From the NCBI RefSeq assembly GCF_002196515.1, contig NZ_CP018835.1:1240001-1304000 (forward strand): DNA of 64,000 nucleotides. Direction: 5' to 3'. The translations under genes were made by a program, and so were the position numbers. The DNA is from Vibrio gazogenes (GTDB lineage Bacteria; Pseudomonadota; Gammaproteobacteria; Enterobacterales; Vibrionaceae). Under the pieces are notes generated by a model. The model saw only the letters and a list, made by a program, of their open reading frames with translations. It made no database searches and was not told the origin of the DNA. This document shows, piece after piece, positions 39,475 to 64,000 of the stretch. How positions within the stretch are numbered: the first letter of the stretch is position 1; every line of letters begins with the position of its first letter.

Positions 39475-39584
39475 CTAGATACATCATCACTTTCCCTTAT
39501 TAATTCCCCATTATTCCCGATAATTTTCTTAATAATTCCACTACTGTGGCCTTGTATCCACCCATATTATACAAGGAGCGAACC

Positions 39585-40475
39585 ATGCAAGAGCTGGAAC
39601 TGACGGCATCAGTCGGCAACGGTGCAGACAATTCCCCGGAAGATGTATTGAATATCCAGAAGGCGTTGAATCAGATTGCCGGCAAGATCGGCCTGCAAAC
39701 GCCCCTGGCAGAAGACGGACAAATTATCGAAGCCCCGGATCAATCGCCAACCTGTCAAGCCATCGGTCTGTTACAAACCACCCTATTAGGTTATCGGCAT
39801 CCCGATAATCGGATCGACTGCGGTGGCAAAAGTGAACAGGCACTCAAGCAAGCACTCCTGCCGACTCCGGCTTATATTCCCGATCTGGCGTTACCGGAAT
39901 CTGCGCCACAAAGAGGACTCAGCGAACAGGATTATCAGGATGCCAGCGAACTGCTCTCATGTGACGTTGCTGCGATCAAAGCGGTTTCGGATGTCGAATC
40001 ATCCGGTAGTGGATTCTTTGCATCCGGTGCCCCCTGCTTATTGTTTGAAGCCCATCAGTTCTCTAAATATAGTGACCATCGGTTTAATGACTCCCATCCG
40101 GATATTTCTTCGCCAAAATGGAATCGGGCGCTGTATGCCGGCGGAGAAAAAGAGTACGAACGGCTACAACAAGCTCTGACACTGGACCGGGAAGCCGCTT
40201 TGAAATCAGCGTCTTACGGACGCTATCAGATCATGGGATTCAACCATCAAAGCGCAGGCTATGCAGACGTCGAAAGCTTTGTCCGGGATATGTTTTTGGC
40301 AGAGCGTCATCACCTGATGGCCTTCGTTCATTTTATTCAATCCAATCCGAAACTACTCAGTGCCATTCAATCCCTCGATTGGGCAACCTTTGCCCGGTAT
40401 TACAATGGCCCGGGTTATGCTGAAAACCACTACGATGAGAAGCTACAACGGGCTTATGAACACCATCAAGGATAA
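39585..40475 (+). CDS. N-acetylmuramidase with peptidoglycan-binding domain, no signal peptide
   Basis: 296 residues from the ATG at 39585 behind AAGGAG. The N-terminal ~110 residues are a peptidoglycan-binding type repeat (DNSPEDVLNIQKALNQIAGK, YRHPDNRIDCGGKSEQALKQ). The C-terminal ~180 residues are an N-acetylmuramidase domain (AIKAVSDVESSGSGFF with the catalytic Glu, CLLFEAHQFSKYS, ASYGRYQIMGFNH, WATFARYYNGPGYAENHYDE), as in phage endolysins. The lack of a signal peptide means export by a specialised machine or action only on lysis. It belongs to the plus-strand group 39585-42515. Confidence 0.85.
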   Translation: MQELELTASVGNGADNSPEDVLNIQKALNQIAGKIGLQTPLAEDGQIIEAPDQSPTCQAIGLLQTTLLGYRHPDNRIDCGGKSEQALKQALLPTPAYIPDLALPESAPQRGLSEQDYQDASELLSCDVAAIKAVSDVESSGSGFFASGAPCLLFEAHQFSKYSDHRFNDSHPDISSPKWNRALYAGGEKEYERLQQALTLDREAALKSASYGRYQIMGFNHQSAGYADVESFVRDMFLAERHHLMAFVHFIQSNPKLLSAIQSLDWATFARYYNGPGYAENHYDEKLQRAYEHHQG

Positions 40476-40633: not shown

Positions 40634-41395
40634 GTGTCAAATACAACTTTGAAAATACATCCTCTCTGCCAAGAGATTCTGTCAACCGATCCTTTAGAAA
40701 ACGCCAAGATGGACGAGTTCTGGGACAGACTGAATGATTTGCAAATGAAGCTTTATCTCCAAATTTCCGGGCTGGATTTTCGCGGGGAGCCAAACAACAA
40801 TGAGTCTGTCACCATGACCAACCGAAGCCATGCCATTTGGGACATCAGTCAATTTCGTATCAATGCCGGTTCTCCCAGCCAGCACTACGTTTTCCCCGAG
40901 AATACCCTGATCCGTAGCGGTGAATCGATAACCGTTTATACCCAGCCCGGAGCCCAGTATAGTTTCAACTCCAATCGCCCAATCTGGAATAATCATGGCG
41001 ATACCGCCACACTACTCAATAGCAAGGGTGACGTCATCTCAACTTGGATTTACGGCAATGTCGCTCGCGATTATGTCCTGATTAGTTATCTGCACTATGA
41101 CGGTCATGAGTTCAGAACAGAAGGGGACGAATATGTTGAGTTAAAAAACTTTTCTGAACATCATATTGATCTCACTGATTGGCAGCTCAGGTCAGAGCTC
41201 AATGATCACACTTTTACCTTCCCCTCAGGGTCAACACTGACACCATCAGGGACAGTTCTGGTTTATACCAATCGTCCCCCCACGGCCGACAATGAATATA
41301 GTTTTAATAGCCCGACAGCGATCTGGGACAATACCGGAGGCCGGTGCACCCTGCTTGATTATGACGACAATGAGGTCGCTTTTTATGCATATTAA
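40634..41395 (+). CDS. protein with two lamin-tail domains
   Basis: 253 residues, GTG start seven bases after AAGGAG. Two lamin-tail (LTD) Ig-like domains in tandem: about 45-145 (ESVTMTNRSHAIWDISQFRI ... ISTWIYG) and about 150-250 (DEYVELKNFSEHHIDLTDWQ ... CTLLDYDDNEVAFY). No signal peptide. LTDs are usually extracellular or bind polymers and nucleic acids. 158 bases downstream of the muramidase gene. Confidence 0.75.
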   Translation: MSNTTLKIHPLCQEILSTDPLENAKMDEFWDRLNDLQMKLYLQISGLDFRGEPNNNESVTMTNRSHAIWDISQFRINAGSPSQHYVFPENTLIRSGESITVYTQPGAQYSFNSNRPIWNNHGDTATLLNSKGDVISTWIYGNVARDYVLISYLHYDGHEFRTEGDEYVELKNFSEHHIDLTDWQLRSELNDHTFTFPSGSTLTPSGTVLVYTNRPPTADNEYSFNSPTAIWDNTGGRCTLLDYDDNEVAFYAY

Positions 41396-41468
41396 ACATT
41401 AAACGATGAGTGCGTATTCCGAAGCGTCATTCAGTCACACCGTTCAATACAGATAAGTGCCCATTGAT

Positions 41469-42515
41469 ATGGTTATTCGCGCATTCAGCCGTCGCTCCTC
41501 CGGGAGCGCGGCGTCCGTACCGCCATCAAGTGTAGATAAAACGGCACCACCGCCAGCGCTGACCGAAACACAAACGCTGATCAACGATGGCATTCGACTG
41601 TTACATTATGTTGCCCGTTCGGGAAACTTGAATGTTGATCCAGATATCGCAGCAGGCATTATCAACGCACAAACCAACCTGCACAGCCGCAATTGGGGAG
41701 AAGACGACGAAAACCGCTTATTGCGTTGCTATGACAAACTCGCCACTCAGGTCTGGCCGGTGACCGTCGAAAGTATCAAATCCGTTGTTCCCAATGCCGT
41801 GAACGGACAAATCGAGTCTCCCCGCGCCAATCGCACGATTATCTGGTATCGCCGTTATACCGTCTTTACCTTAATCATGCTGCTCAGCGTTCAGATCTAT
41901 TATCTGTTCGGTTACGGATTAACCCAAACCCTGTTGCAATATACACATTTGCCCATGTTATCTGCCTCGGCAGTGCAAGAACAATCCGAGTCGTCTTCAC
42001 CTCAAAACGCGAAGCTCTACGAAAATCATCTCCGCGCCAGTTATCAGCTATTACAATATTGGAATCAAGTCTGGATGCTCGGCAACGATTTTCAACGGAC
42101 ACCGGCGGATCAATTGATCCCACCCGGTCAGGAAGAGCAGACCATTCACTTTGCCACTCATTTGATCGCTGCCCAGTCCGTTCTGCAAATGTTACAAAAC
42201 TATGTTCTGCCCTTAATGTACGGTTTGTTGGGGGCCTTTATTTTTGTCCTGCGGAGCCTGTTACAACAGATCAGAACCCTGACCTATACCGCCAGCCGCG
42301 AAATCGGCTACCGACTGCGACTGACTCTCGGCTGTCTGGCTGGCATGATCACTGGCTGGCTGCTCAAGCCAGACATAGGCACAATGACACTGTCACCGAT
42401 GGCACTGGCCTTTATTGCCGGTTACAGCATTGAAGTACTGTTCAGTGCACTGGATATGATCATCGATAATATTCGTAAGAAAACACCGGAAACCAAAGAT
42501 TCAACCCCGCCTTAG
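41469..42515 (+). CDS. polytopic membrane protein of unknown function
   Basis: 348 residues from the ATG at 41469 (a GTG four codons earlier is the alternative; neither has a strong ribosome site). A Ser/Pro-rich N-terminus and a cytoplasmic helical domain (to about 130) precede a membrane helix (VFTLIMLLSVQIYYLFGYGL), a second and third near 225-255 (NYVLPLMYGLLGAFIFVLRS) and one or two more before residue 330. No known motif. Last gene of the left accessory group. Confidence 0.65.
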   Translation: MVIRAFSRRSSGSAASVPPSSVDKTAPPPALTETQTLINDGIRLLHYVARSGNLNVDPDIAAGIINAQTNLHSRNWGEDDENRLLRCYDKLATQVWPVTVESIKSVVPNAVNGQIESPRANRTIIWYRRYTVFTLIMLLSVQIYYLFGYGLTQTLLQYTHLPMLSASAVQEQSESSSPQNAKLYENHLRASYQLLQYWNQVWMLGNDFQRTPADQLIPPGQEEQTIHFATHLIAAQSVLQMLQNYVLPLMYGLLGAFIFVLRSLLQQIRTLTYTASREIGYRLRLTLGCLAGMITGWLLKPDIGTMTLSPMALAFIAGYSIEVLFSALDMIIDNIRKKTPETKDSTPP

Positions 42516-51597: not shown

Positions 51598-52032
51598 ATG
51601 ATCAAAATACCTTCACGTTGGCTTTTCATCCTGTTCTTCTTACTATCGGGATGCACCGTTCAGCTCGTTGCCGACTATGATCCACAAACGATGTTGAAAA
51701 TTCAGCAAATCAATAACCAAATCGATCGGCTGTACATTCAGATGGCAGTGTTACCCGCCAAAGAACGCCGTTATGACCAATTTCAGCATCAGTACTTAAA
51801 TATTGATGTCGAGATTCGGGGATTTGTCCGGTTACAGAAGTGGCGAAAAATGAATGAAGAGACGTATAAACAAGCGGAAATTCTGGCCAAGCTCTGGCAA
51901 CAAGACATGGCTCAGCATCAAAAGAACGGTTATCTCTCAGATTTTCTGCTCAAACGCCACCGCGCGCAGTATCAGCGGTTGCTCGACACGATCGCTCAGG
52001 GTGAACTTGCGAAAAACACCTCACATTCCTGA
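51598..52032 (+). CDS. putative lipoprotein
   Basis: 144 residues. A signal peptide with lipobox LLSGC (Cys19) is followed by a helical domain of about 125 residues (NNQIDRLYIQMAVLPAKERR, FLLKRHRAQYQRLLDTIAQG). Envelope-anchored; function unknown. First of a plus-strand set of four (51598-54864). Confidence 0.75.
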   Translation: MIKIPSRWLFILFFLLSGCTVQLVADYDPQTMLKIQQINNQIDRLYIQMAVLPAKERRYDQFQHQYLNIDVEIRGFVRLQKWRKMNEETYKQAEILAKLWQQDMAQHQKNGYLSDFLLKRHRAQYQRLLDTIAQGELAKNTSHS

Positions 52033-52096: not shown

Positions 52097-52396
52097 ATGT
52101 CCTTTTCCATTGATACGATCGTCGATCAGGTTGCCGCACAATTCGGGCAGTCCCCCTTAAAATCAACCATCGAAAATACGCTCAAAGCCAGCCTGAATCA
52201 AAAACAGGGAGAATTTGAAGCGCTACAGACTGCATTACAAAACGGAGAGCTGACGCAAGAAGAGTTTCAAATCGAAATCGAACGGGAAAAAGCCCTTCTG
52301 GCCGCAGAGATGGAAACCCTCAAGATCATCGCCAAAGCCGAGGTCCAAAAAATAGTCAATCAGGTATTTCAGGCCATAACCAGTCAGTTGAAATAA
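52097..52396 (+). CDS. short helical hypothetical protein
   Basis: 99 residues starting MSFSIDTIVDQVAAQFGQSP behind AAGGAG. Helical throughout, with NGELTQEEFQIEIEREKALL and a hydrophobic C-terminal repeat (AKAEVQKIVNQVFQAITSQL). It may pack as a bundle like the Reb-type small proteins further on, but it lacks the RebB motif. Function unknown. Confidence 0.65.
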   Translation: MSFSIDTIVDQVAAQFGQSPLKSTIENTLKASLNQKQGEFEALQTALQNGELTQEEFQIEIEREKALLAAEMETLKIIAKAEVQKIVNQVFQAITSQLK

Positions 52397-52465: not shown

Positions 52466-53947
52466 ATGAGACGCGTTCGAATCACTCGTATTATTTGGGT
52501 TCCGTCCGGTTACCATCTCGTCCGCCGTATCGCGAACCGGACGGCAAAACCGCGTTCAAGCTCAAAGATAGCAACCTCTCACAACACAATCTCACAGCCG
52601 CAGCAAGCGGCTGAGGCCCTGACGCAACCAACCGAGCCGGATACGGTGCTTGTTACACCATCCGAGACGCAAGTCTCACCAGAGAGCCCCACCCAAACGG
52701 AGGACTTTCAGACAGCACCAGAATCGAGTGAAATTGCTTCATTTCCAGAACAATGCAACCCTTATCGTGATTTTTTACAGCATTTACCCCACTATTTAGA
52801 TTCGATGCCAACAGGCACATTTGTGACGTATTCCCCTACGGAAGCACTTCACTTATCGCCAAGTCCATCCGATTTATCTGAAAATACCGCTTTGCCACGC
52901 CCTCCATTGACCGAGCGCCCGAGAGCACCCCGTGACACGCCGGCACAATCCTCAGACAGCGATTCAGCGCATCAATCCGATGATGAGAATGACGATGAGG
53001 AGCCCCGGCATCCGGCAAAGCACAGTGGGTCAACCCCACACCTCCGCCTCCTAACCGGCATCCGCCATGTACTGCGAGCATCAGCCGTTTGTCATCCTGC
53101 CTCATTACCGGCAACCGCCTCGGCCCCGATACACACAATTTCATCAGAAAACCGTCATTACGCATCCATTCAGCCAAGTTTCTCGACACCAGAACCTTTA
53201 GGATCACTCCGTCATGACTCAACTTGGAGAAAGAGAATGAGACAATTGCTATTTCGCTTATGTGAAGCCGCTGATGGCCGTCACTTTGCTTTCCTCACTG
53301 ATCAGCCAGATGTTGAAGACTTATTCGACAACGGCTACAAAGTTGCCTATAAAAGCCACGATAGGACGACCGGTAACGGTATACTGGCGCGCTGGAAAAA
53401 AGCCTATTCGGTAAAATCAGTCAATTACGAGCAGTTGCCAGAACAAGACGGTTTACCGGATGGTGTGCAAAGTGCCTTCGATATGATGATTCGCAACTTA
53501 ATCCCCGGTGTTGATATTTTCTTCTGTGATTACAATTTGGCCATTGAAGCCGATTTACCCATCTGTAACCATATGATGGAACAATACCGCTCCACTGACT
53601 TTGTACTCTTCTCCTGCGAAGAGTTAATCGGTAATGATCCCACCACCCAACCTTACATGGTCTCTTATGCTGCACCTCGTTATCAAAATGGCGGTAATAC
53701 CAGTAGTCAGCATCGAATTTATTGTAAAACCGACGCTTTTGCTTTTTGCCAGTCCATTCATGCCATTGTGGTTCAACGAGAAAAAGATGCCCTGAGCGGT
53801 GGACATATTCGCACTGAAGTCGATAGCTATGTTGGCGAGCCGCCCGTCGAAGCCGCAGTTGCCGAACAAGTCATCAATCGATTTGTCGAAGCTCTGCCGC
53901 AATACAATAGTTCAGTCAAAGCGCTGAAGGCGCCACAGACAGAATAA
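52466..53947 (+). CDS. Pro/Ser-rich protein with receiver-like C-terminal domain
   Basis: 493 residues, ATG behind AGGAGG. Residues ~1-250 are low complexity (Pro, Ser, Thr, acidic patch NDDEEP), likely disordered. The C-terminal ~240 residues are folded: MRQLLFRLCEAADGRHFAFL, then DIFFCDYNLAIEADLPICNH and DFVLFSCEELIG. The CDYNLA...FVLFSCEE pattern is like strands 3 and 4 of a response-regulator receiver with its Asp, so a pseudo-receiver is possible; this is weak. No known family. Followed 15 bases later by the next gene. Confidence 0.65.
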   Translation: MRRVRITRIIWVPSGYHLVRRIANRTAKPRSSSKIATSHNTISQPQQAAEALTQPTEPDTVLVTPSETQVSPESPTQTEDFQTAPESSEIASFPEQCNPYRDFLQHLPHYLDSMPTGTFVTYSPTEALHLSPSPSDLSENTALPRPPLTERPRAPRDTPAQSSDSDSAHQSDDENDDEEPRHPAKHSGSTPHLRLLTGIRHVLRASAVCHPASLPATASAPIHTISSENRHYASIQPSFSTPEPLGSLRHDSTWRKRMRQLLFRLCEAADGRHFAFLTDQPDVEDLFDNGYKVAYKSHDRTTGNGILARWKKAYSVKSVNYEQLPEQDGLPDGVQSAFDMMIRNLIPGVDIFFCDYNLAIEADLPICNHMMEQYRSTDFVLFSCEELIGNDPTTQPYMVSYAAPRYQNGGNTSSQHRIYCKTDAFAFCQSIHAIVVQREKDALSGGHIRTEVDSYVGEPPVEAAVAEQVINRFVEALPQYNSSVKALKAPQTE

Positions 53948-53961: not shown

Positions 53962-54864
53962 ATGAAAGCAGAACGACTGTATTATGCGGCCTTAAGTGCC
54001 GCATTAATGGCAAAGGCTGAGCCGGCACTCGCCCAACAACTGGCCTACCAACTCGCTTATCTCACCGCCAACCCAAGGTTGCAGGGACATTCCGTGCTCA
54101 CACCATCACATGATGCCGCAACGGAGCAACCATCAGTCAATGATACGGCGCCGACACATCAAGCATTTGCTTCACCGGCTCAGCGCTCACAGCAATCCCC
54201 GCAACGCTGGCCGATTAATCCACTCAACCACGTCGATTGGCTCGCTGGCGGCCGACTGAATGAACGTTGGCTCCAACAGCAGAAGTTTGCCACTGGCAGA
54301 CAACCACACACGACGACACACACAATGCATCCACCGTCTCAGGGCATCCTATCCACTCCGTCTCCCGCAGGCGAAGAACGAATTCTGAACCGGATCAATG
54401 ATGCCATCATGCGGGCATTGGTTCAGTCAGACCCTGATGCGCAGCATAAATTTGCGGTGGCACTATTTGCCTGTCTTTGCCATCATCGCTGGCCCGCACC
54501 TGATGCTGAACGTGAAATCTACTGGCTGATGATGCATTCAGTCCGCTGTTACCTTTACGGCACCCGACTACAGTGGGGCAAAGCATTCGTCGATAGTACC
54601 GAGGCCAGACAATCCCGAAACCCGATGTATCAGATCGTGTCAGAGTGCCTGAATCATCCACCGTCTGGACGCTCGCAAATCGGGCTGAAGCAAGTGATGA
54701 TGCAACTGAGTCTATTACCACCGATCCTTCAGATACAATGTTTAGGCCTCGGGATCACCTATCGGGATCCCCATGCAGCCGCAACGGACAAATGCAGCGT
54801 CTTACATGATGTGCTTCATCCACCGGCACTCGATACAGCCTTGGGATGGTTTTGGGGGGAATGA
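53962..54864 (+). CDS. hypothetical protein
   Basis: 300 residues, start behind GGAGAGGG. The N-terminal ~60 residues are helical (AALMAKAEPALAQQLAYQLA), a Pro/Ser/Gln-rich linker follows, and the C-terminal ~170 residues are a helical domain (ILNRINDAIMRALVQSDPDA, VALFACLCHHRWPAPDAERE). I do not recognise it. Tightly linked to the 493-residue gene before it, so the two probably act together. Confidence 0.65.
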   Translation: MKAERLYYAALSAALMAKAEPALAQQLAYQLAYLTANPRLQGHSVLTPSHDAATEQPSVNDTAPTHQAFASPAQRSQQSPQRWPINPLNHVDWLAGGRLNERWLQQQKFATGRQPHTTTHTMHPPSQGILSTPSPAGEERILNRINDAIMRALVQSDPDAQHKFAVALFACLCHHRWPAPDAEREIYWLMMHSVRCYLYGTRLQWGKAFVDSTEARQSRNPMYQIVSECLNHPPSGRSQIGLKQVMMQLSLLPPILQIQCLGLGITYRDPHAAATDKCSVLHDVLHPPALDTALGWFWGE

Positions 54865-54876: not shown

Positions 54877-54921
54877 GTCGTTTGGTGAACAGTCATTTGG
54901 TGAATAGTCATTTGGTGAATA
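54877..54921. repeat. 15-bp tandem repeat, three units
   Basis: Units at 54877, 54892 and 54907 follow GTCATTTGGTGAATA; the second and third are identical. It lies just downstream of a gene, like the 15-bp arrays at 31867 and 35716. Confidence 0.85.
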
Positions 54922-54935
54922 GTGAATGACCAACT

Positions 54936-54969
54936 ATGACATGCTTAAAATCATCTTTGAGCATGTCAT
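54936..54969. terminator. stem-loop downstream of the 300-residue gene
   Basis: ATGACATGCT and AGCATGTCAT form a perfect 10-bp stem, with AAA/TTT pairing further in. No T run follows. Confidence 0.55.
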
Positions 54970-55035
54970 GTCGCTGAAAGCTAAATTGTGCGTCAAACGT
55001 CGATGCTGGGGGGAACAACAGTTGATTGTGTCACC

Positions 55036-55584
55036 CTATTTCCAACTCATCACACTATCGTAGTTCTCACAGTTCTCTACAGCATCAGATGCATTGGTGA
55101 TAAAAACTTGCTGCTTCTCCGAAACCGGATAACTGAGATATTCAGAACACAGGGCACTTTGACCATTACCGACAACAACTTTTGTGCCTGCCTTCAATGT
55201 ACATTTCACCAACTTATCGAGTGGTGACCATTGATAACAAATCTCATAATCTTGTCTATATGTCGCTGTCTTGCCTGACGGAAATTGAAATGACCACCAC
55301 TGACCAAACTGACTATGAGGGTTGGTACTATTCCATGCACGATAGACTGTAACTTTATCTGTGCTTTCATAAACTTCCCCTTGACATAACTTCCCCTTCA
55401 ACGGCTCACCAATGGCCTGAGTAAGCAGCGCTGAGTCTTGAACCAACTTAAACCGGCTACTTAAATCACCGGTAATGATAGTACTACCGACACAAGATGA
55501 CGGTGGAACTTGTTCGGTGTTCTTCGGTTCATTCGCACACCCCTGTATCGCAATGATCAATGCACCGATTAAAATCCTTTTCAT
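55036..55584 (-). CDS. putative lipoprotein
   Basis: 182 residues. Signal peptide with lipobox AIQGC (Cys16), then a Cys-containing domain of about 165 residues (GKLCQGEVYESTDKVTVYRA, FGQWWSFQFPSGKTATYRQD, YEICYQWSPLDKLVKCTLKA). The pairs of Cys suggest disulfides in the periplasm or at the cell surface. Function unknown. Convergent with the plus-strand set. Confidence 0.7.
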   Translation of the reverse strand: MKRILIGALIIAIQGCANEPKNTEQVPPSSCVGSTIITGDLSSRFKLVQDSALLTQAIGEPLKGKLCQGEVYESTDKVTVYRAWNSTNPHSQFGQWWSFQFPSGKTATYRQDYEICYQWSPLDKLVKCTLKAGTKVVVGNGQSALCSEYLSYPVSEKQQVFITNASDAVENCENYDSVMSWK

Positions 55585-55693
55585 GTAAATTCACCCATAT
55601 TTGATTCATAGTCACCAAGGCATCACAGCGTCTTTTAACCAGACGGTGCCTGTATGATTTTGCAAGAAGATAAAGTATTTATATTAGTCTGTT

Positions 55694-57165
55694 TTGGGCA
55701 CAGAACACCGATGTTTCAGGAATCGAGGAACGGATTGTGTGTCAAAATTTGGGGCCGGAAGGCTGGGAGATGAACATTGTGGCGCTGCTGTTTGGTGCGC
55801 ACTTGATTTTGCCGATTCCAATCGCATCTCCGAAAGCGCCCCAGATACTTTTGCCCAGCAGCAAAAGTACCCAAAAGTGCCTTGAGTTTAAGTTCAGAGC
55901 GTGTAATCAGGGTCGGATTGATTCGCTCCTGCTCAAGCAATCCTGAAAAATCGTCCTGATTTTTCACCCTGAGTCCTGTGACCAAATTGGCTTTTTGCTA
56001 TGTTTCACCCAACTCAAATCAACCACCCAACCAAGAAAACCATTCCGGGAGAATGGTTAGGCTTTTCCGGGCAAGACGCCCGTAAAAGGCGGTTCTGGAC
56101 AACGTGCGACACCGTCAAACAAACAAGATTTTCTGGTTACTCTTGCATCTTGGCAAGAGTAACTGGCGCACAGAGCACCAATGCTTCTGAAATCGCAGAA
56201 CGTAATTGTGCGTCAAATTTCGGGGCCGGAGGCTGGGGAGATAAAAATAATAGGCTGCTGGTTTGGTGCGCAATCACTTTCCTCGATTTCAATCGCATCT
56301 CCAACAGCGCCCCAGATACTTTTGGCGTTCCAAAAGTACCCAAAAGAACGGTTTAGTTCGTGAGCGCTAGCCGGGTCGGATTGATTCGCTCCTGCTCAAG
56401 CAATCCTGAAAAATCGTCCTGATTTTTCACCCTGAGTCCTGTGACCAAATTGGCTTTTTGCTATGTTTCACCCAATTCAAATCAACCACCCAACCAAGAA
56501 AACCATTCATGGAAGAATGGTTAGGCTTTTCCGGGCAGGACGCCCGTAAAAGGCGGTTCTGGACAACACGCGACGCCGTCAAACAAAAAAGATTTTCTGG
56601 TTCGTCTTTCATCTCTGAAAGATGAACTGGCGCACAGAGCACCGATGCCTCTGAAATCGCAGAACGTAATTGGGCGTCAAATTTCGGGGCCGGAGGCTGG
56701 GGAGATAAAAATAATAGGCTGCTGGTTTGGTGCGCAATCACTTTCCTCGATTTCAATCGCATCTCCGAAAGCGCCCCAGATACTTTTGGCGTTCCAAAAG
56801 TACCCAAAAGAACGGTTTAGTTCGTGGACGCTGGCCGGGGCGCTTTTATTCGCTCCTGCTCACGAAAAGCTAAAAATTCATCCATGAATTTTTACCCTGA
56901 GCGCATCGATCAAATTGGCTTTTTACTATGTTTCACCCAATTCAAATCAACCACCCAACCAAGAAAACCATTCATGGAAGAATGGTTAGGCTTTTCCGGG
57001 CAGGACGCCCGTAAAAGGCGGTTCTGGACAACTCGCGACCCCGTCAAACAAAAAAGATTTTCTGGTTCGTCTTTCATCTCTGAAAGATGAACTGGCGCAC
57101 AGAGCACCAATGCTTCTGAAATCGCAGAACGTAATTGGGCGTCAAATCTGGAGAGCCGGAGGCTG
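55694..57165. repeat. array of structured ~470-base repeats, block 1
   Basis: It contains a 3' partial copy (about 55694-55990), two full copies (about 55991-56460 and 56461-56935) and a 5' partial copy (about 56936-57165). Each full unit holds at least five stem-loops: AACCATTC/GAATGGTT, CGGGC/GCCCG, a variable GTTACTCTTGC or GTTCGTCTTTC stem, ACTTTTGG/CCAAAAGT, and a T/A-rich stem. Two of these differ between copies on both arms yet still pair. Stops and lack of ribosome sites argue against coding; ORFs of 60-126 codons on either strand here are by-products. Confidence 0.85.
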
Positions 57166-57558
57166 GGAAAAACAAACACTGAGACCGTATCTCTCTCCAA
57201 CATTTTGAAATCACTCGCAAAAATGACACATCAAGAATTAGAAAAGGATGAAATTCAACAACATCACTCGCGTTTCACACTGCGACGACTCGTCAACATC
57301 CCTGATACCACTTACGCTACGCAGGCACCGAAAAAAACGGTGTCGGGATTGGAACACCGATAAAACTCGATAGCACATCATATGCTGAACTTGTCTCAGT
57401 ATTTTTTTATGTGTAGCCTTGCTCAATTATGGTGAGCTGGCAAGGCAGCGTATGCTGGCCGTACTTCGAGGCGGTTGTTCCAACCTTGTCCAGCCCACCA
57501 CCTAAAGATTGGAACCTTTGCGTGGTGGGGCAATTCATATTCTCGAAGAGGCTTTTCC
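57166..57558. other. non-repeat insert with structured leader
   Basis: The insert between the two repeat blocks starts here. No convincing gene is seen before 57559. The last ~90 bases contain stems GGTTG/CAACC (57473-57485) and CCCACCAC/GTGGTGGG (57494-57529), which would lie in the 5' leader of the next small gene. Confidence 0.45.
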
Positions 57559-57741
57559 ATGTCAAAAACCAACCTCGATTTACACCTGACAGCTCGCAGC
57601 TATCTGATTGATTGTCTTATCACCAATTCGCACCCCAGTATCGTTCAAAATGAACTGCGAGAGGTTATCCTGTACCTCAATAATCTGATTACCTTTGATG
57701 AAATGAATCTGCGGAAAGAAGAAATCATGCTTGATGAGTAA
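57559..57741 (+). CDS. 60-residue hypothetical protein
   Basis: ATG at 57559, seven bases after AAGAGG; a longer frame starts at 57475 but overlaps the stem-loops. The protein (SKTNLDLHLTARSYLIDCLI, VQNELREVILYLNNLITFDE) is helical and slightly acidic. No family recognised. It lies between a structured leader and a hairpin beside the CRISPR array. Confidence 0.5.
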   Translation: MSKTNLDLHLTARSYLIDCLITNSHPSIVQNELREVILYLNNLITFDEMNLRKEEIMLDE

Positions 57742-57765
57742 ACCAGTGGCTGATTGAAATAAATC

Positions 57766-57798
57766 GGAGTGGCATCAGCCTCAACTGAGTGTCACTCC
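57766..57798. terminator. hairpin between the small gene and the CRISPR array
   Basis: GGAGTGGCA pairs with TGTCACTCC (one G-T pair) around a 15-base loop. It ends where the first CRISPR repeat begins and could terminate the small gene on the plus strand or the array transcript on the minus strand. Confidence 0.5.
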
Positions 57799-57886
57799 TT
57801 TCTAAGCTGCCTATGCGGCAGTGAACGGAAGAAAGAGAAGTGAAAATGTTTGGCTTGATTTCTAAGCTGCCTATGCGGCAGTGAAC
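57799..57886 (-). CRISPR. type I-F CRISPR mini-array: two repeats, one spacer
   Basis: Two identical 28-base repeats (57799-57826 and 57859-57886) begin TTTCTAAGCTGCC and end GCGGCAGTGAAC, the reverse of the type I-F repeat GTTCACTGCC...CTTAGAAA. They flank a 32-base spacer (57827-57858), the exact I-F length. The crRNA would be read from the minus strand. No cas genes occur in the window. Confidence 0.9.
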
Positions 57887-58029
57887 AATGAACATATCAC
57901 GAAAAAATAAGCGGCAGCAAGCGGTTAGCGGCAAAAACCCTTTTTTACCTTGTTAAAATCGCCCTTCTGTATCTTACTGTTTTTATTAATTATTTTTTAG
58001 GGACAAAAAAAGAAGGTCTAAACGATTTA
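57887..58029 (-). promoter_or_regulatory. probable CRISPR leader
   Basis: The 140 bases upstream of the array, on the transcribed (minus) strand side, are AT-rich with runs of A and T and have no ORF. Position and composition fit a leader; no promoter element is assigned. Confidence 0.5.
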
Positions 58030-58775
58030 AATTTTACCCTGAGCGCATCGGTCAAATTGGCTTTTAAAATGTTTCACTCAACTCAAATCAACCACCCAAC
58101 CAAGAAAACCATTCATGGAAGAATGGTTAGGCTTTTCCGGGCAGGACGCCCGTAAAAGGTGGTTCTGGACAACACGCGACGCCGTCAAACAAAAAAGATT
58201 TTCTGGTTCGTCTTTCATCTCTGAAAGATGAACTGGCGCACAGAGCACCAATGCTACTGAAATCAGAAAACTCAATTGTGCGTCAAATTTCGGGGCCGGA
58301 GGCTGGGAAGATAAAAATAATAGGCTGCTGGTTTGGTGCGCAATCACTTTCCTCGATTTCAATCGCATCTCCGAAAGCGCCCCAGATACTTTTGGCGTTC
58401 CAAAAGTACCCAAAAGAACGGTTTAGTTCGTGGACGCTAGCCGGGGCGCTTTTATTCGCTCCTGCTCACGAAAAGCTAAAAATTCATCCTTGAATTTTTA
58501 CCCTGAGTACATCGATTCTATTGGCTTTGTATATGTTTCTCTGAATTCAAATAAAATTCTGAACAAAGAAAACCATTCATGGAAGAATGGTTAGGCTTTT
58601 CCGGGCAGGACGCCCGTAAAAGGCGGTTCTGGACAACGTGCGACCAAGTCAAACAAAAAGATTTTCTGGTTACTCTTGCATCTTGGCAAGAGTAACTGGC
58701 GCACAGAGCTCAGAAGCCTCTGAAATCGGGAAACTCAATTGTGCGTCAAATCTGGAGAGCCGGAGGCTGCGAACC
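58030..58775. repeat. array of structured ~470-base repeats, block 2
   Basis: One full unit (about 58030-58530) and a 5' partial unit (about 58531-58775), matching block 1. The partial unit ends at the same internal point as the one ending block 1 (GGAGAGCCGGAGGCTG). The partial unit carries the GTTACTCTTGC form of the variable stem and the full unit the GTTCGTCTTTC form. Confidence 0.85.
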
Positions 58776-58924
58776 CCATGCAACAGAAAATCGCCCCCAA
58801 CACCAACCAAAACCTGAGTTTTAAGAACTCAGGGAAAAACACCGAGATCCGCCCCCCCCAATCACTTACAGTCATCACTGTACACCACACCATCATCGAT
58901 GAATCCATCATGTAAGGAGCACAG

Positions 58925-59527
58925 ATGAACGCCCAACAACTTCTCACCTTTTTTGCCGAACATTATGATTTTCAGCGAGCCAATCAGTATCTTGCCGATC
59001 CAGAGATCCGCACCTTCGCGAAATCCTGGCTGACGGTCGAGCTGGGGCAGACGCTGCAACAACATCATCCGAATTCAAATCTCACCTATACACCCCGCTA
59101 TACCGCCGACGACAACTACCTTCACTACCAAGAAAAGGCGGATCAGATTGAAGTGTGCAGTAAACGGCAGGCTTCTTACGCTGATTTCGGTATTCGACAA
59201 GAACATAAATCCGTTTGGTATGAAATATTCTCAATGCATGAGCAACAGTTTCGTCACGCCCGTGAGCGGCAGAAAATGCACATGAATATGGCGCGAGTTA
59301 CGACTTTTCAGCGCTATTTGCAAGGTGATCGGGTCTGTTTGCTGAGTGTCTTATGGGGCGCTTTTGATACCCAAGATGCCGCAATGCTGGCTGAGTTTGA
59401 TCATCGATCACGCTGTACCTATGCCTTAGATTCACAGCGGACGGGGAGCGGGCAGATTTCGCGGTTATGTCAGATTGATAAGCAAGCCAACCCAAGACTG
59501 ATTCTGGCGGCCTATATGCCTAAGTAA
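58925..59527 (+). CDS. hypothetical protein beside the reb operon
   Basis: 200 residues, ATG behind AAGGAG. Mixed alpha/beta sequence: NAQQLLTFFAEHYDFQRANQ, IRTFAKSWLTVELGQTLQQH, YADFGIRQEHKSVWYEIFSM, VCLLSVLWGAFDTQDAAMLA. No signal peptide. It is convergent with the reb operon and starts right after the repeats. Not recognised. Confidence 0.7.
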   Translation: MNAQQLLTFFAEHYDFQRANQYLADPEIRTFAKSWLTVELGQTLQQHHPNSNLTYTPRYTADDNYLHYQEKADQIEVCSKRQASYADFGIRQEHKSVWYEIFSMHEQQFRHARERQKMHMNMARVTTFQRYLQGDRVCLLSVLWGAFDTQDAAMLAEFDHRSRCTYALDSQRTGSGQISRLCQIDKQANPRLILAAYMPK

Positions 59528-59596: not shown

Positions 59597-59863
59597 TCAA
59601 TCAAATTTCTTCGCGACTTCTGCCGCTTTATTCCCCAGCTCAGAAAAATTCGCAGTCCCTTTTTCCATCACTTGCTGAGCTTGTTCGATGACCTTGATAT
59701 ATTTTTCATCACCGGTTGCCAACAACTGTGACAATGCCACCCCAATCGCAGTGGTACTGATCGTATTGAGGTTGCGGAGATTATCGACAGCATCCTGAAC
59801 GGCAATCGCCGTTGACTGTGCAACGGACTGTTTCGCCTTGTCAGTGGTTGATCCTTTCGACAT
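59597..59863 (-). CDS. R-body-associated small helical protein
   Basis: 88 residues. SVAQSTAIAVQDAVDNLRNL, NTISTTAIGVALSQLLATGD and KVIEQAQQVMEKGTANFSEL are close to the 97-residue protein at 61340-61633, so the two are paralogues. They share the Ala/Gln/Asn-rich helical character of Reb proteins but not the RebB motif. Last gene of the minus-strand reb operon. Confidence 0.7.
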   Translation of the reverse strand: MSKGSTTDKAKQSVAQSTAIAVQDAVDNLRNLNTISTTAIGVALSQLLATGDEKYIKVIEQAQQVMEKGTANFSELGNKAAEVAKKFD

Positions 59864-59930
59864 GGTTCCTCATCAAAGCATCGCGCTGAGTCAAGATAAT
59901 GCGTCAAACTGCGACGTCACTCGTCATCGC

Positions 59931-60116
59931 TTAACCTTGCTGTAAAATCAGGGCGCAAGCGGTGGAAGTTGAAGCGTTACTGATGGCTTGCATCCCCTGT
60001 TGAATCGTCACTGCATTTTGCATATGCAATCCCATAGTATCTGACATGGCAGATTCGGTCAGTTGGTTGATCATCTCATCGACCTGTTCCAGATCGGTAT
60101 TTTCCTGTTTTGCCAT
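59931..60116 (-). CDS. R-body-associated short protein
   Basis: 61 residues: a polar N-terminus (NTDLEQVDEMINQLTESAMS) and DTMGLHMQNAVTIQQGMQAI followed by STACALILQQG. The second half is related to DTLGLSMYNAITNQQQSQM in the 60757-61197 protein. Both resemble a shortened RebB core (membership inferred). In the reb operon. Confidence 0.65.
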   Translation of the reverse strand: MAKQENTDLEQVDEMINQLTESAMSDTMGLHMQNAVTIQQGMQAISNASTSTACALILQQG

Positions 60117-60154
60117 GATGTGTTCTCCGTGGAGGAAAGAGGAACGGCTGGTTT

Positions 60155-60202
60155 AAAGGGGATTCGCCATTCACACACCTTGGTTTGAATGGCTGCCCCT
60201 TT
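60155..60202 (-). promoter_or_regulatory. long stem-loop within the reb operon
   Basis: AAAGGGG and CCCCTTT, with GCCATTCA and TGAATGGC inside, form a long interrupted stem between a rebB gene and the 61-residue gene. It could stabilise upstream mRNA or attenuate downstream genes. Confidence 0.5.
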
Positions 60203-60221
60203 TGCTGACCAATGCCAATGA

Positions 60222-60488
60222 CTAACCTTTTTCGACGATATCTTCGGCTGCACGACCCAATACCGCAGTGCCGATAGCCGTCAGTGAGTTGATCCCCTGA
60301 ACCGTTGCCGATTGCATCGTGATACCGGCTTGTTGCTGTGCCGATGTCGCATTATGGTTGAGATTCGACATTGCCAGACTCATTGCAGTATAGAGATTCC
60401 CCATCGCATTAGCTGGAGAACTCGCCAGTACCTGCGTATTGGTCTGAGTGATTGAGTCCGTAATTTGTTCGTTCACTTTTTTAGACAT
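60222..60488 (-). CDS. RebB-family R-body structural protein
   Basis: 88 residues. NEQITDSITQTNTQVLASSP, ANAMGNLYTAMSLAMSNLNH and NATSAQQQAGITMQSATVQG follow the RebB pattern (ITDSxTQxN ... AMGNL ... ATxAQQQA ... ATVQGxNS). RebB proteins polymerise into the coiled ribbon that extends on a pH drop. Divergent copy compared with those at 61692 and 62061. Confidence 0.88.
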   Translation of the reverse strand: MSKKVNEQITDSITQTNTQVLASSPANAMGNLYTAMSLAMSNLNHNATSAQQQAGITMQSATVQGINSLTAIGTAVLGRAAEDIVEKG

Positions 60489-60499
60489 AATTTCCTCGT

Positions 60500-60760
60500 T
60501 TATGCGTGCTGCTCAGGCAATACCTGCTGAAGTTGCTGATTGATTTTTTGCATTTCCTGCTCGATCTGGGTGTGAACATCTTCAAACATCTGGTTCACTT
60601 CCTGATGAACCTTTTGGATATTTTCGCCCATCTCCAATGCCTCAAATTGATCCTGATTCTGGCGAACCATTTGCTGAATCTCTTGCATCTGGTTTTCCGT
60701 GGCTTGCTGAATCTGGTTCAGTCGCTGCTCGATATCGGTGGATGATGGTTGATGACTCAT
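60500..60760 (-). CDS. coiled-coil protein in the reb operon
   Basis: 86 residues, Gln/Glu-rich and almost all coiled coil (EQRLNQIQQATENQMQEIQQ, VHQEVNQMFEDVHTQIEQEM). The start overlaps the stop of the gene before it by four bases (ATGA), so it is translationally coupled. Possibly an assembly or nucleation factor of the ribbon; function unknown. Confidence 0.7.
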   Translation of the reverse strand: MSHQPSSTDIEQRLNQIQQATENQMQEIQQMVRQNQDQFEALEMGENIQKVHQEVNQMFEDVHTQIEQEMQKINQQLQQVLPEQHA

Positions 60761-61197
60761 TCTTGTGTTTCCTCCGGCTGTTGTTTATTCCGTTTTAAAA
60801 ACTTGAATAAGTTAAAACGCTTGGTTGTTTTGGTGTCTACCGCGGTATTGTCTGATTCACCGGCATCCGGAGACAAACGATCTGACCCATCAACAAAAAT
60901 CGCGGGCTCGGGCTCTGCATGCGAATCTTTTCGGGATGACGCTGACATCGCGGGAGACTGTGTTTGCAGCAACCGGGCACAAGCATTGGTCACCGACGCT
61001 GCGGTTGTCATTTGTGACTGTTGTTGATTGGTGATCGCGTTATACATCGATAGCCCCAACGTATCTGCCAATGTTGTTTCCAACAGGCTGGTCGGCTGGG
61101 CGGTATATACCTGCAATGTATTGAAATGTTCAATCGTCTGCTGGGGTAACTCCTGGCGCGATTCATTTTCATAACGGGGATTCTGCTCTTGCATCAT
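60757..61197 (-). CDS. R-body-associated protein with Reb-like core
   Basis: 146 residues from the ATG at 61197, behind AAGGAG (the frame also has a GTG two codons earlier). About residues 35-85 (ETTLADTLGLSMYNAITNQQ, QSQMTTAASVTNACARLLQT) match the 61-residue protein at 59931. The C-terminal half is charged and ends in a basic helix (KTTKRFNLFKFLKRNKQQPE). Followed without gap by the coiled-coil gene. Confidence 0.65.
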   Translation of the reverse strand: MMQEQNPRYENESRQELPQQTIEHFNTLQVYTAQPTSLLETTLADTLGLSMYNAITNQQQSQMTTAASVTNACARLLQTQSPAMSASSRKDSHAEPEPAIFVDGSDRLSPDAGESDNTAVDTKTTKRFNLFKFLKRNKQQPEETQE

Positions 61198-61339
61198 CGT
61201 CACTCCTTGATGGTTGCTGATGATCCTGATTTGCGATGAGGAAAATCAAAGATCATGACGTGGATTGAATCAGGATCTATCACTCATATCTCTTCCCTTG
61301 TGTGGCTTCGATACGGGATCGTCGTATTGGTCGCAACGA

Positions 61340-61633
61340 TTATTTGGCAGAGTCGTACAGCACGGTGGCAATTTTTTCCCCGACGACGCCAAAGTTATCC
61401 GCACCATGGGTCACGACTTTTTGAGCCTGTTCAATGATATCGGCATACTTCAAATCGCCGGTCTCTAACATCTGACTCAATGCGGAACCAATTGCCGTGG
61501 TACTGAGCGTGTTGAGGTTACGCAGGTTGTCTGTTGCATCCGATAATGCCAGTGCAGTCGATTGAGCAACCGACTGAAACGCAGAATTGAATGCACTTTG
61601 ATCCGGCTCAGGAGGGCGTACAGTGTCTTTCAT
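61340..61633 (-). CDS. R-body-associated small helical protein
   Basis: 97 residues. FQSVAQSTALALSDATDNLR, NLNTLSTTAIGSALSQMLET, and KYADIIEQAQKVVTHGADNF make it a paralogue of the 59597-59863 protein. The N-terminal ~15 residues are Pro/Glu-rich. In the reb operon between rebB copies and the 146-residue gene. Confidence 0.7.
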   Translation of the reverse strand: MKDTVRPPEPDQSAFNSAFQSVAQSTALALSDATDNLRNLNTLSTTAIGSALSQMLETGDLKYADIIEQAQKVVTHGADNFGVVGEKIATVLYDSAK

Positions 61634-61651
61634 CCTATGCTCCTTTTAAGT

Positions 61652-61678
61652 ACCTTTGCCGGCGAATCCGGCAAAGGT
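61652..61678 (-). promoter_or_regulatory. stem-loop within the reb operon
   Basis: ACCTTTGCCGG and CCGGCAAAGGT form a perfect 11-bp stem around CGAAT, between the 61692 rebB gene and the next gene. It likely adjusts how much downstream mRNA is made or kept. Confidence 0.65.
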
Positions 61679-61691
61679 AGTGAAAGCATGA

Positions 61692-61952
61692 TTAATCTTT
61701 CTCAATAATGCCTTCAGCGCTACGACCAACAACCGAGCCACCAATAGACATCAATGAGTTGACGCCCTGCACTGTGGCAGCCTGCATCGTAATTTGCGCT
61801 TGCTGCTGAGCAGCCGTTGCATTATGAGCAGCCGTTCCTAACGCTTGGCCGGTTGACATCAGTAAGTTACCCATTGCCATAGCTGGGGTTTCACCAACGA
61901 CTTTGGTATTGACTTGTGTGACCGAGTCAGTCACTTGTTCATTTACTGGCAT
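61692..61952 (-). CDS. rebB: RebB-family R-body structural protein
   Basis: 86 residues: PVNEQVTDSVTQVNTKVVGE, AMAMGNLLMSTGQALGTAAH, NATAAQQQAQITMQAATVQG, VNSLMSIGGSVVGRSAEGII. This is a full RebB protein. It differs from the next copy (62061) at 10 of 86 positions, so they are recent duplicates. Expected to be a main ribbon subunit in the cytoplasm. Confidence 0.92.
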   Translation of the reverse strand: MPVNEQVTDSVTQVNTKVVGETPAMAMGNLLMSTGQALGTAAHNATAAQQQAQITMQAATVQGVNSLMSIGGSVVGRSAEGIIEKD

Positions 61953-62060
61953 TGTGATTTCCTTTTACGAGTTAATTGATAAAACGGTGTTCTGCTCATG
62001 CCACTATTGGATTTTCACCACAATCAGATCTCAGGCAGAACGAGTTAACACATCATGGTG

Positions 62061-62321
62061 TTAACCTTTTTCAATGATGCCTTCAGCACCCCGCCCAATG
62101 ACGGAAGAACCGATGGCCATCAAAGAATTGACGCCCTGCACGGTCGCGGCCTGCATGGTAATCTGAGCCTGTTGTTGCGCCGCTGTTGCATTATGTGCTG
62201 CATTACTTAATGCATGGCTGGTTGACATCAGCAGGTTGCCCATTGCCATCGCGGGAGTTTCCCCGACAACTTTTGTATTCACCTGTGTTACAGAATCGGT
62301 GATTTGTTCATTCACTGGCAT
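62061..62321 (-). CDS. rebB: RebB-family R-body structural protein
   Basis: 86 residues: PVNEQITDSVTQVNTKVVGE, AMAMGNLLMSTSHALSNAAH, NATAAQQQAQITMQAATVQG, VNSLMAIGSSVIGRGAEGII. Recent duplicate of the 61692 gene. Multiple RebB paralogues are normal in reb operons, where different subunits co-assemble. Confidence 0.92.
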   Translation of the reverse strand: MPVNEQITDSVTQVNTKVVGETPAMAMGNLLMSTSHALSNAAHNATAAQQQAQITMQAATVQGVNSLMAIGSSVIGRGAEGIIEKG

Positions 62322-62344
62322 AATATTCTCCTACGTTCACTGAA

Positions 62345-62620
62345 TTAGCTTTTCTTCTTACTACTCTGTTCTAGAATGAGCTCGACACTACGACCGACAA
62401 TTGCACTACCGGTACTCAGCAATGAATTGACACCCTGTACTGTCGAGGTCTGGTGGACCAAAGTTCCCTGCTGGTTCGCGCTTACACTGCTGTGCGCTGT
62501 CAGCCCCATCGCATGGCTCGTGGAAATCAGCAGATTCCCAATCGCCGCAGCCGGTGTACTGCCAACGGCTTCCGTGTTGACTTGGGTTACCGAATCAGTA
62601 ACCGCATCATTTACTGGCAT
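62345..62620 (-). CDS. RebB-family R-body structural protein, divergent
   Basis: 91 residues from the ATG at 62620, behind AGAGGAG; the frame is open 15 codons upstream but that start lacks a ribosome site. PVNDAVTDSVTQVNTEAVGS, AAAIGNLLISTSHAMGLTAH and STVQGVNSLLSTGSAIVGRS keep the RebB pattern, but the AQQQA core is NQQGT and the C-terminus is basic. 23 bases upstream of the next copy. Confidence 0.88.
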   Translation of the reverse strand: MPVNDAVTDSVTQVNTEAVGSTPAAAIGNLLISTSHAMGLTAHSSVSANQQGTLVHQTSTVQGVNSLLSTGSAIVGRSVELILEQSSKKKS

Positions 62621-62672
62621 AGATATGCTCCTCTTAGTCATGAAAGATGACGATTCATCCTTCAAAGCCGGT

Positions 62673-62879
62673 TCAGGACGACGAACTTTTCAGTGCAATG
62701 GCGTAAATCAAACTCGAACTTAGTGCAGTGTTGGTTACGACAATTGTCTGTATCTGCTGCTGAACCTGAGTTGCATTCTCTGCGGCTCTGCCAAGTGAGG
62801 CAGCAACCAAATTCAACTGCGTGTTTCGTGAAACCTTGGGTGTCAATTCGCTTAACAACTTCTGAACATCAATTTCCAT
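62673..62879 (-). CDS. short Reb-like protein, first of the operon
   Basis: 68 residues from the ATG at 62879 (AGGA nine bases before it); longer starts at 62900 and 62918 are possible but have poorer sites. VQKLLSELTPKVSRNTQLNL, GRAAENATQVQQQIQTIVVT and NTALSSSLIYAIALK resemble the ATxxQQQ core of RebB in a shortened form. Function presumed in R-body assembly. Confidence 0.65.
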   Translation of the reverse strand: MEIDVQKLLSELTPKVSRNTQLNLVAASLGRAAENATQVQQQIQTIVVTNTALSSSLIYAIALKSSSS

Positions 62880-62992
62880 CTTCCGGCTTCCTGACGCCAT
62901 CCTGTGACTGAGTTTCATATTAGAAGTAAGGCGATTGGATAACTTGGCTTAACGGATGAATAATCACGGCTGATCTAGCAATAAATCGGTGA

Positions 62993-64000
62993 TTAGTGGG
63001 CGACGAAATAGTCGTGTTCCCGGCGTTGTTCTTGTCGGAACTCTCTTGGCGTACAACCGGTATAACGTTTGAACATTTTTTCAAAATGACTGAGGTCGCC
63101 AAATCCGGCACTCATACACACATCGGTGATCTTGATCAGTGGGTTGGTCATAATCAGACGTTGGGCTTCACGGATCCGGAGCTGACACAGCATCGATTTA
63201 AATGAAGAGCCCAGATGTTCTCGGAACAAATATGATAAATGAGAGGCACTGGTATAACTGGCGGCGGCGATTTGGCTCAAAGAGATGTCTTCGTGGAAGT
63301 GTTCACTTAAAAACAGTAATGCTTTGGTTAATGCCGGATGCATGTTGGTCCATGATGATTGCTCATGACGGAGTAAATGCTCGATCAAATCTACTTTTGG
63401 CGTTGCTTTTTGACAGAGTCCTAAACGCGCCAGATCATCCGTGGTGATCTCTGTTTGATCCAATGAAGTAATTAACAATAGTATATTTTGTAACTGGCTA
63501 ATATTGCCGGGCCACTCATATTGTTTCAGTTGCTCCCAGGCATCATCAGAAAATAAAACTTGGCGTTCAAATCGGCCCAAGATGTATTGGATATGCTGTT
63601 CTATATCTTGTTTTCTCTCACGTAATGGTGGCAAGTGAAAATTAAACTGAGGTACGGAAGAACCTAATATTTTGGCAATAAACTGTTGTTCCGAAGGTAA
63701 GTTATAAAAAGGTTCTGTACAGGAGACAATTAAGCGAATTTTATTTTTTATTAATGCGTCCTGAAATGAATCTTGTGTTAATAAAAAAATCAGTTCGTCT
63801 TTGAACGAGGGTTCTAATTTATCGACTTCTTCCAGATAAATAGAACCATTCCCAATTTGCTCAATACAATGACACAGATAGTCACGATAGGTTTGCGCAT
63901 TATGAAGATTGGCGGGAATACAGATGAACGGTTCTCGGGAGCGTGCACTGTGATAGTGGATATTAAATGCCACATCTTTTTTTTCACACCCCGTTTCACC
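62993..64000 (-). CDS. AAA+/AraC fusion transcriptional regulator, N-terminus outside window
   Basis: The frame is open to the window edge, so the gene is partial (335 codons seen). The edge holds a Walker A-like GETGCEKKDVAFNIHYHS, like sigma54-activator AAA+ domains (GESGTGKE...) but with Glu for the second Gly. A Walker B-like SIYLEEVDKL and LPPLRERKQDIEQHIQYILG follow; the GAFTGA loop is absent. Instead of a Fis-type HTH, the C-terminal ~100 residues are an AraC HTH pair (DISLSQIAAASYTSASHLSY, KITDVCMSAGFGDLSHFEKM, FKRYTGCTPREFRQ). It lies directly upstream of the reb genes in the same direction, so it is the likely reb activator. Confidence 0.88.
   Translation of the reverse strand, partial: GETGCEKKDVAFNIHYHSARSREPFICIPANLHNAQTYRDYLCHCIEQIGNGSIYLEEVDKLEPSFKDELIFLLTQDSFQDALIKNKIRLIVSCTEPFYNLPSEQQFIAKILGSSVPQFNFHLPPLRERKQDIEQHIQYILGRFERQVLFSDDAWEQLKQYEWPGNISQLQNILLLITSLDQTEITTDDLARLGLCQKATPKVDLIEHLLRHEQSSWTNMHPALTKALLFLSEHFHEDISLSQIAAASYTSASHLSYLFREHLGSSFKSMLCQLRIREAQRLIMTNPLIKITDVCMSAGFGDLSHFEKMFKRYTGCTPREFRQEQRREHDYFVAH

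Follow-up and report, generated by a model that had tools for sequence, protein, structure and literature searches.

R-bodies are coiled, spring-like protein ribbons, insoluble in SDS, which extend when triggered. The reb genes of R-body systems are highly prevalent in Vibrio, among other genera (Dorr 2026, PMC13430693), and V. fischeri, V. nigripulchritudo and V. coralliilyticus are among their carriers (Raymann 2013, PMC3583457). The V. nigripulchritudo reb cluster alone suffices for R-bodies (PMC13430693, citing Goudenege 2013), electron micrographs of recombinant Reb proteins from this species have been cited (PMC7457808), and the RebB-domain genes of V. coralliilyticus are raised on chitin (PMC5209532). 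The synteny of group 1 reb loci includes HP1.1 (~360 amino acids, aa), HP1.2 (110-120 aa), HP1.3 (~170 aa, a distant Reb) and HP1.4 (60-80 aa, likewise a distant Reb) (PMC3583457). A more recent survey gives the marks of primary Reb proteins (QITD, KxxxD/E, QQQ, two prolines, no cysteine pair, few aromatics) and defines secondary groups S1-S4, with the combination of groups 1 and S3 favoured in Vibrionales (PMC13430693). An island of ~30 kb has been described in V. coralliilyticus, in a text that mentions its endolysin and gives, in the part dealing with the island, no mechanism tying the flanks to R-bodies (PMC7457808). Here we analyzed a 64,000-nucleotide stretch of Vibrio gazogenes DNA (contig NZ_CP018835.1, positions 1,240,001 to 1,304,000; the window), in which a reb operon (59597-62879, minus strand) converges with a plus-strand module (39546-59527) that begins with a muramidase gene. 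That this linked module tracks reb is well supported by the comparison of genomes and, to our knowledge, new as a statement, and a role for it in the deployment of R-bodies is plausible. The initial annotation of this DNA was right to place an R-body operon in a Vibrio chromosome; its remark that R-bodies have little or no experimental record in Vibrio was mistaken, as those from V. nigripulchritudo are cited by two papers.

The operon consists of ten small minus-strand genes, lettered a to j in reading direction, all with open frames and, judging by strand and spacing, presumably co-transcribed, as the initial annotation had proposed. Four RebB-family proteins named there scored far above the 24-bit cut-off of the Pfam RebB model (PF11747), i.e., b (62345..62620; 91 aa, 77.1 bits, best start at 62620), c (62061..62321; 86 aa, 103.5 bits), d (61692..61952; 86 aa, 101.2 bits) and h (60222..60488; 88 aa, 88.7 bits). 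Also above it were f (60757..61203; 148 aa, 35.8 bits), a RebB-domain protein with a long C-terminal tail, and its short relative i (59931..60116; 61 aa, 34.2 bits). The genome holds six RebB matches, all inside this cluster. The other genes are the divergent RebB-domain companion a (62673..62879; 68 aa, 22 bits), the paralogous companions e (61340..61633; 97 aa, 20 bits) and j (59597..59863; 88 aa, 18 bits), each under the cut-off, and the coiled-coil-like companion g (60500..60760; 86 aa).

A close counterpart exists in V. coralliilyticus RE22 (AXN33720-AXN33750; PMC7457808, Table 2), with ten reb genes in equal order plus an AraC regulator. In RE22 order, the lengths are 88, 63, 90, 87, 142, 97, 87, 86, 88, 66 and 403 aa there and 88, 61, 88, 86, 148, 97, 86, 86, 91, 68 and 392 aa in the window, a match of table lengths, order and domains, not of sequence. 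The locus may also correspond to Raymann group 1, in which case f would match HP1.3, i HP1.4, the e/j pair HP1.2 and the module protein tm, in size, HP1.1, a likeness of size, order and text rather than of sequences (PMC3583457). The companions fit the secondary Reb groups by size and order (PMC13430693), and the reb cluster of Pseudomonas aeruginosa PA14 likewise has RebB-type proteins and dedicated regulators, together with an R-body-associated protein, RapA (PMC8322103). From the RebB scores and these printed records it follows that the operon as such is of an already known kind; the row is certainly a reb operon, and an ordinary one, and its ten genes likely make R-body ribbons. The earlier suggestion that the companions are undescribed assembly factors thus loses its adjective, the proteins fitting HP1.2-HP1.4 and the secondary Reb groups by size and order; a part in assembly stays possible, as with AZC_3784, a protein with no similarity to known reb genes that is essential for R-bodies in Azorhizobium (PMC5527310).

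The convergent module lay outside the coordinates covered by the initial annotation. Its first gene, mur (39546..40475), encodes a 309-aa phage-type N-acetylmuramidase (endolysin; PF11860, 222 bits; 4.9e-70 against the PHROG endolysin), and is followed by ltd (40634..41395; 253 aa), a lamin tail domain protein (PF00932, 116 bits), and tm (41457..42515; 352 aa), a predicted membrane protein with three hydrophobic stretches that, from its size and place, is possibly the HP1.1 (~360 aa) of Raymann 2013. Further downstream are lip (51598..52032; 144 aa), a predicted lipoprotein (LSGC lipobox, by eye) with homologues in the same position; sm (52097..52396; 99 aa), a small protein, helical by eye and taken for a coiled coil; z (52466..53947; 493 aa), with a conserved C-terminal part of 236 aa that is receiver-like by eye only; y (53962..54864; 300 aa); and x (58925..59527; 200 aa), which faces reb and ends 69 bases from j. 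No Pfam match was obtained for z, y or x. The ratio of nonsynonymous to synonymous substitution rates (dN/dS) was 0.06-0.49 for mur, ltd, tm, lip, sm, z, y and x. By eye, x had raised the idea of a nuclease, which was dropped without any supporting match.

The RE22 flanks fit this module, comprising a PF11860 muramidase, a PF00932 lamin tail protein and proteins of 320, 140, 99, 261, 235, 283 and 197 aa (PMC7457808). There are three differences from that table: z is one gene in the window and seemingly two in RE22 (the 261- and 235-aa proteins), several genes separate reb from the x-sized gene in RE22 where the window has the 69 bases, and a biosynthetic cluster inside the module, described below, is a feature of the window (PMC7457808). 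The group 1 section of the Raymann survey is without z, y, x, mur and ltd (PMC3583457), and the survey of Dorr set aside non-Reb neighbours (PMC13430693). Among open-licence papers, with subscription papers and supplements outside the scope, we found none tying module genes to R-body release; the genes appear there only as rows of the RE22 table (PMC7457808).

To relate the module to RebB, mur, ltd, tm, z and x were counted genus-wide in 196 Vibrio genomes, our own included, of which 24 were RebB-positive and 172 RebB-negative. Close orthologues of mur, the line for which was drawn after the matches were seen, were found in 18/24 RebB-positive and 1/172 RebB-negative genomes (19 genomes). Similar distributions were obtained for ltd (17/24 versus 2/172; 19 genomes), for the C-terminal part of z (19/24 versus 1/172; 20 genomes) and for tm (17/24 versus 2/172, the two RebB-negative cases being fragment matches only). 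Finally, x was present in 13 RebB-positive genomes and in none of the 172 others, and in all 13 it lay downstream of reb and convergent with it, the nearest listed RebB match being about 0.4 to 23 kb away. An order-wide sample of 394 genomes contained RebB in eight, our own included; tm was found in one of the other seven (G349), and in none of the remaining six, which had 1 to 6 RebB matches each. A search for tm homologues returned 139, the best 120 of which were listed; among the matches listed, those of Thalassomonas, P. luteoviolacea and O. sediminis lie on contigs as long as their reb-bearing ones.

The order of the module genes is largely kept as well. The series mur-ltd-tm-lip-sm-z-y-x recurs in G081 and, with mur and ltd separated by other genes, in V. 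coralliilyticus (G148), and G164 keeps the module order without x. In G349, which belongs to another family, ltd to x are kept and convergent with the reb operon, and mur was not found in the 5 kb past ltd. The position of y is the same in G148, G081, G164 and G349. Elsewhere, tm-ltd-mur faces the reb operon in Photobacterium chitinilyticum, and RebB genes are directly preceded, on their own strand, by ltd-tm in Oceanospirillum and by ltd-lip-sm in Photobacterium lipolyticum. The interval between j and x varies among genomes, with different genes there in others.

Several findings weigh against a functional tie between module and R-bodies, and some of them speak for an ordinary group 1 reb operon whose convergent genes share its island and have no joint function with it. 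The Fisher P values for x, z, tm and mur (4e-14 to 7e-21) ignore phylogeny and kinship. Counting any mur match at E<=0.001 gave 30/196 genomes, 20 RebB-positive and 10 RebB-negative, so that only the 19 close orthologues track reb. Six of the 24 RebB-positive genomes had no close mur orthologue and seven had no ltd and tm, so the module is not required by every reb system; most of it is missing from the split-type clusters and from some other RebB-positive genomes (G032, G067, G088, G100, G122 and G169; G129 has mur only). Two RebB-negative genomes retain module genes. G175 lacks x and has tm only as a fragment, alongside mur, ltd, lip, sm, z and y; in G195, ltd is accompanied by pieces of tm and mur. 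These genes may therefore do something else. The linkage can also be loose: G156 has ltd adjoining reb, tm at a distance of ~0.48 Mb and mur on a separate contig, the contig that carries the module in G136 is not that of reb, and a gap of roughly 30-40 kb separates mur from reb in both G164 and G171. Neither pattern searches nor a 9-mer comparison yielded a motif common to the reb promoter and the module genes that held up, the comparison leaving two isolated 9-mers before ltd and tm. In the window clade, the biosynthetic cluster breaks up the module. No holin or spanin was recognised, with tm and lip having no match at E<=0.01 in NCBIfam or PHROG and none above the cut-offs of Pfam. Within the reb row, the e/j profile was not joined to RebB by hhalign (0.3%, with narrow alignments).

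A shared island without shared function would sit well with the ~30 kb island of V. coralliilyticus (PMC7457808), with split-type clusters that manage without most of the module, with the RebB-less module of G175, with the scattered parts in G156 and G136 and with the variable stretch between j and x. It accounts less well for a gene order largely kept in two families, and for ltd-tm and ltd-lip-sm standing directly before reb in Oceanospirillum and Photobacterium. Because the same genes stay with reb in such distant lineages, we consider a passive island possible but somewhat unlikely.

We instead favor, at about an even chance, a reading in which the ten genes make ribbons and the module breaches the wall of the producing cell, so that ribbons and cell contents could act outside. 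What was computed directly is which genes are present and in what order, their homology, the low dN/dS and the co-occurrence; all statements about activity are inferred. R-bodies are cytoplasmic. It has been suggested that producing cells act as 'kamikazes' (Wang 2021, PMC8322103), and in other systems a wall enzyme accompanies a large bacterial weapon: the TtsA muramidase serves typhoid toxin release (PMC6996933), and a holin/endolysin cassette serves Tc toxin release (PMC9718411). The likeness of our locus to these two is one of description, and no holin was found here. These precedents and the kamikaze model, taken with an endolysin-type mur and the cytoplasmic site of the ribbons, are the reasons for supposing that the module may open the envelope of R-body producers. 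In the mechanism we propose, the regulator R, encoded next to gene a, would switch the operon on from a 113-bp upstream region through its AraC domain and without sigma-54; c, d, b and h would co-polymerise into a ribbon; and the remaining RebB-domain proteins, which are short or divergent (a, f and i), would serve together with the helical e/j pair as assembly factors, linkers or ribbon ends. In some of the cells, mur, aided by lip and tm, would then open the envelope, or work as a wall cutter of the export type, allowing ribbons to extend or escape.

An alternative is that the module builds or anchors the R-body, with tm, lip and ltd holding the ribbon to the envelope and mur only remodelling the wall around it. 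In favor of this, tm is a predicted membrane protein, and the conserved basic/aromatic tail of f could touch the membrane; the V. nigripulchritudo cluster, however, is sufficient for R-bodies by itself (PMC13430693, citing Goudenege 2013), and split-type clusters exist without mur, ltd and tm, which makes anchoring quite improbable. The f tail carries the basic/aromatic motif KRFNLFKFLKR, a regular expression for which matched 19/29 homologues, and it is possible that tails of this type contact the membrane or the ribbon end. Near their ends, f and its homologues share a conserved stretch of about KKRFNLxxFLKRK, and two diverged j homologues (loci L032 and L034) have the C-terminal sequences KKRFLIF and KKKFFLF.

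If the wall-breaching reading is extended, marine gammaproteobacterial R-bodies would be one half of a two-operon weapon, i.e., the ribbon, a dedicated envelope-opening module and between them an exchangeable cargo slot. In RE22 (PMC7457808, Table 2), genes of the reb-to-x interval have P near 1 or none, module-sized and reb genes have P near 5e-4, and one reb gene has P 3.5e-3; from this contrast we deduce a variable slot between two fixed blocks. The slot would hold a VasX-N-domain protein in V. coralliilyticus and be empty in the window clade, where a cluster for small-molecule synthesis lies inside the module. We put this extension forward tentatively and rate it as rather unlikely. In G148, the space between reb and x contains a VasX_N-domain protein of 1187 aa (L079:4319-7882) and then two 297-aa paralogues; homologues of the 1187-aa protein are present in G115 and G186.

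A reb-tracking set that includes a wall-cutting enzyme provides a short knock-out list for work on R-body exit and on the contents released in free-living bacteria. The analysis also proposes which protein HP1.1 of Raymann may be, and brings in x and z as further families following reb operons.

Conservation of the reb operon was assessed next to that of the module. The dN/dS of the ten reb genes was 0 to 0.16 against G132, with c unchanged and d nearly unchanged at a dS of 0.4-0.6, and did not exceed 0.21 against three further relatives. Very few changes underlie this highest value, obtained for gene b (62345) with G068, and gene g (60500) is identical in G111 and gives no ratio. Since dN/dS is far below 1, all ten genes look functional. 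A decaying or silent operon is extremely improbable given these values and ten open frames. A search with RebB c collected 36 gammaproteobacterial loci, in which companions were frequent (e in 33, f in 29, j in 29, i in 27 and g in 18); e, f, i and j were all present in 27 of these, in the order e-f-i-j in 27/27. The same search returned 15 Chryseobacterium loci, where RebB alone was found. One split reb cluster (L092 of G088, 2210-10370) has two divergent RebB arrays and, between them, a gene like R and a distant homologue of z, and a weak z homologue lies between divergent reb arrays in G032, G088 and G122.

Turning to the individual Reb proteins, c carries all the primary Reb marks (Dorr 2026) and is likely the main ribbon subunit. 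Gene d, 88% identical to it, has all but QITD, which reads QVTD; b is without QITD (AVTD instead), QQQ and KxxxD/E; h has one proline, one tyrosine and KxxxE at the N-terminus only; and none of the four contains cysteine. The ITDSxTQ...QQQ pattern that the initial annotation saw in each RebB is therefore incomplete in gene b (62345), which has AVTD and no QQQ, and altered to QVTD in gene d (61692). RebB c had no sequence match in the PDB. Structures, which the initial annotation had proposed to predict for each small protein, were modelled for c and e with AlphaFold2: c was predicted as a single helix (residues 2-85; predicted template modelling score, pTM, 0.36) and e as two helices (10-58 and 62-96; pTM 0.65), which we read as a probable hairpin. 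Foldseek of the e model against the PDB gave nothing at E<=0.001.

The companions number six rather than five, the sixth being a (62673-62879). Their division into two paralogue families stood up, with j and e (59597/61340) 58% identical and i and f (59931/60757) joined by hhalign at 98% probability. The view that they are not RebB proteins fared unevenly. It fails for i (59931; 34.2 bits) and f (60757; 35.8 bits), both above the cut-off. In the a family, 12/12 members match RebB (best E 4.3e-11; hhalign probability 94%). In the family of g (60500), 0/11 members match RebB, and g is the sole gene of the row without any RebB match. The e/j family (61340/59597) is only marginally RebB-like, with 9/33 members at E<=0.01 and a best E of 7.2e-4 (20 bits); two e homologues carry the NCBI name 'RebB family R body protein'. 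By hhalign, with narrow alignments, the i profile was not detected against RebB (3.2%), though the Pfam model detects i. Weak NCBIfam matches of the small proteins were dismissed as low-complexity helix noise.

Upstream of gene a lie a predicted control region of 113 bp (62880..62992, minus strand), with a mean column identity of 91% across five genomes, and the gene for R (62993..64000, minus strand; 392 aa), which continues past the window end (L007:6993-8171). Pfam assigned R an HTH_18 domain (76 bits, cut-off 33.6), Sigma54_activ_2 (61.6 bits) and an AAA lid; by its predicted domains it is a degenerate NtrC-like AAA ATPase joined to a C-terminal AraC helix-turn-helix. Neither GAF[TS]G nor a canonical Walker A was found in R or in 34 homologues, ~9 of which lack the AAA region or are unaligned over it; a variant Walker A with a glycine-to-glutamate change was seen in 25/34, the rest being poorly aligned or without the region. 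With the GAFTGA and Walker A motifs missing, R is unlikely to act with sigma-54. An R match was present in 33/36 of the gammaproteobacterial reb loci, some to the AraC part only, and R is a likely activator of the reb operon. Regulators of other reb systems are FecI2 and RcgA in Pseudomonas PA14, as against the AraC-type protein here (PMC8322103), and PraR and RebR in Azorhizobium (PMC5527310).

Two minus-strand genes beside the module encode DUF2589 proteins (36112-36807 and 36963-37580; PF11655, 111 and 41.6 bits) and are tentative module members. DUF2589 homologues occur downstream of the reb operon in some loci (V. mexicanus L012 and L078; also L089 and L090). An 11-mer near these genes was considered as a common promoter motif and rejected, being absent from four relatives checked.

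The biosynthetic cluster inside the module (43128-50614) encodes a nonribosomal peptide synthetase (condensation, adenylation and carrier domains), a polyketide synthase-type ketosynthase with a thioesterase, and an FrsA-like hydrolase, and separates tm from lip in the window, as it does in all four relatives compared. A ~465-base repeat, present in four to five copies at 55790-58773 that are 69-95% identical to reference copies, takes up much of the space from y to x, and related pieces were found in locus L074 of G111. The same space contains an orphan mini-array at 57799-57886, with two exact 28-base CRISPR-like repeats, which we take to be type I-F-like, and a single 32-base spacer. No other copy of the 28-base repeat was found genome-wide with up to 2 mismatches, and a type I-F effector for the array was discarded as a candidate, the genome having no Csy4 match. 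Just past the window on the R side (L007:13598-18999), a gene resembling an anaerobic sulfatase maturase is flanked by two sulfatase-like genes, as judged by eye.

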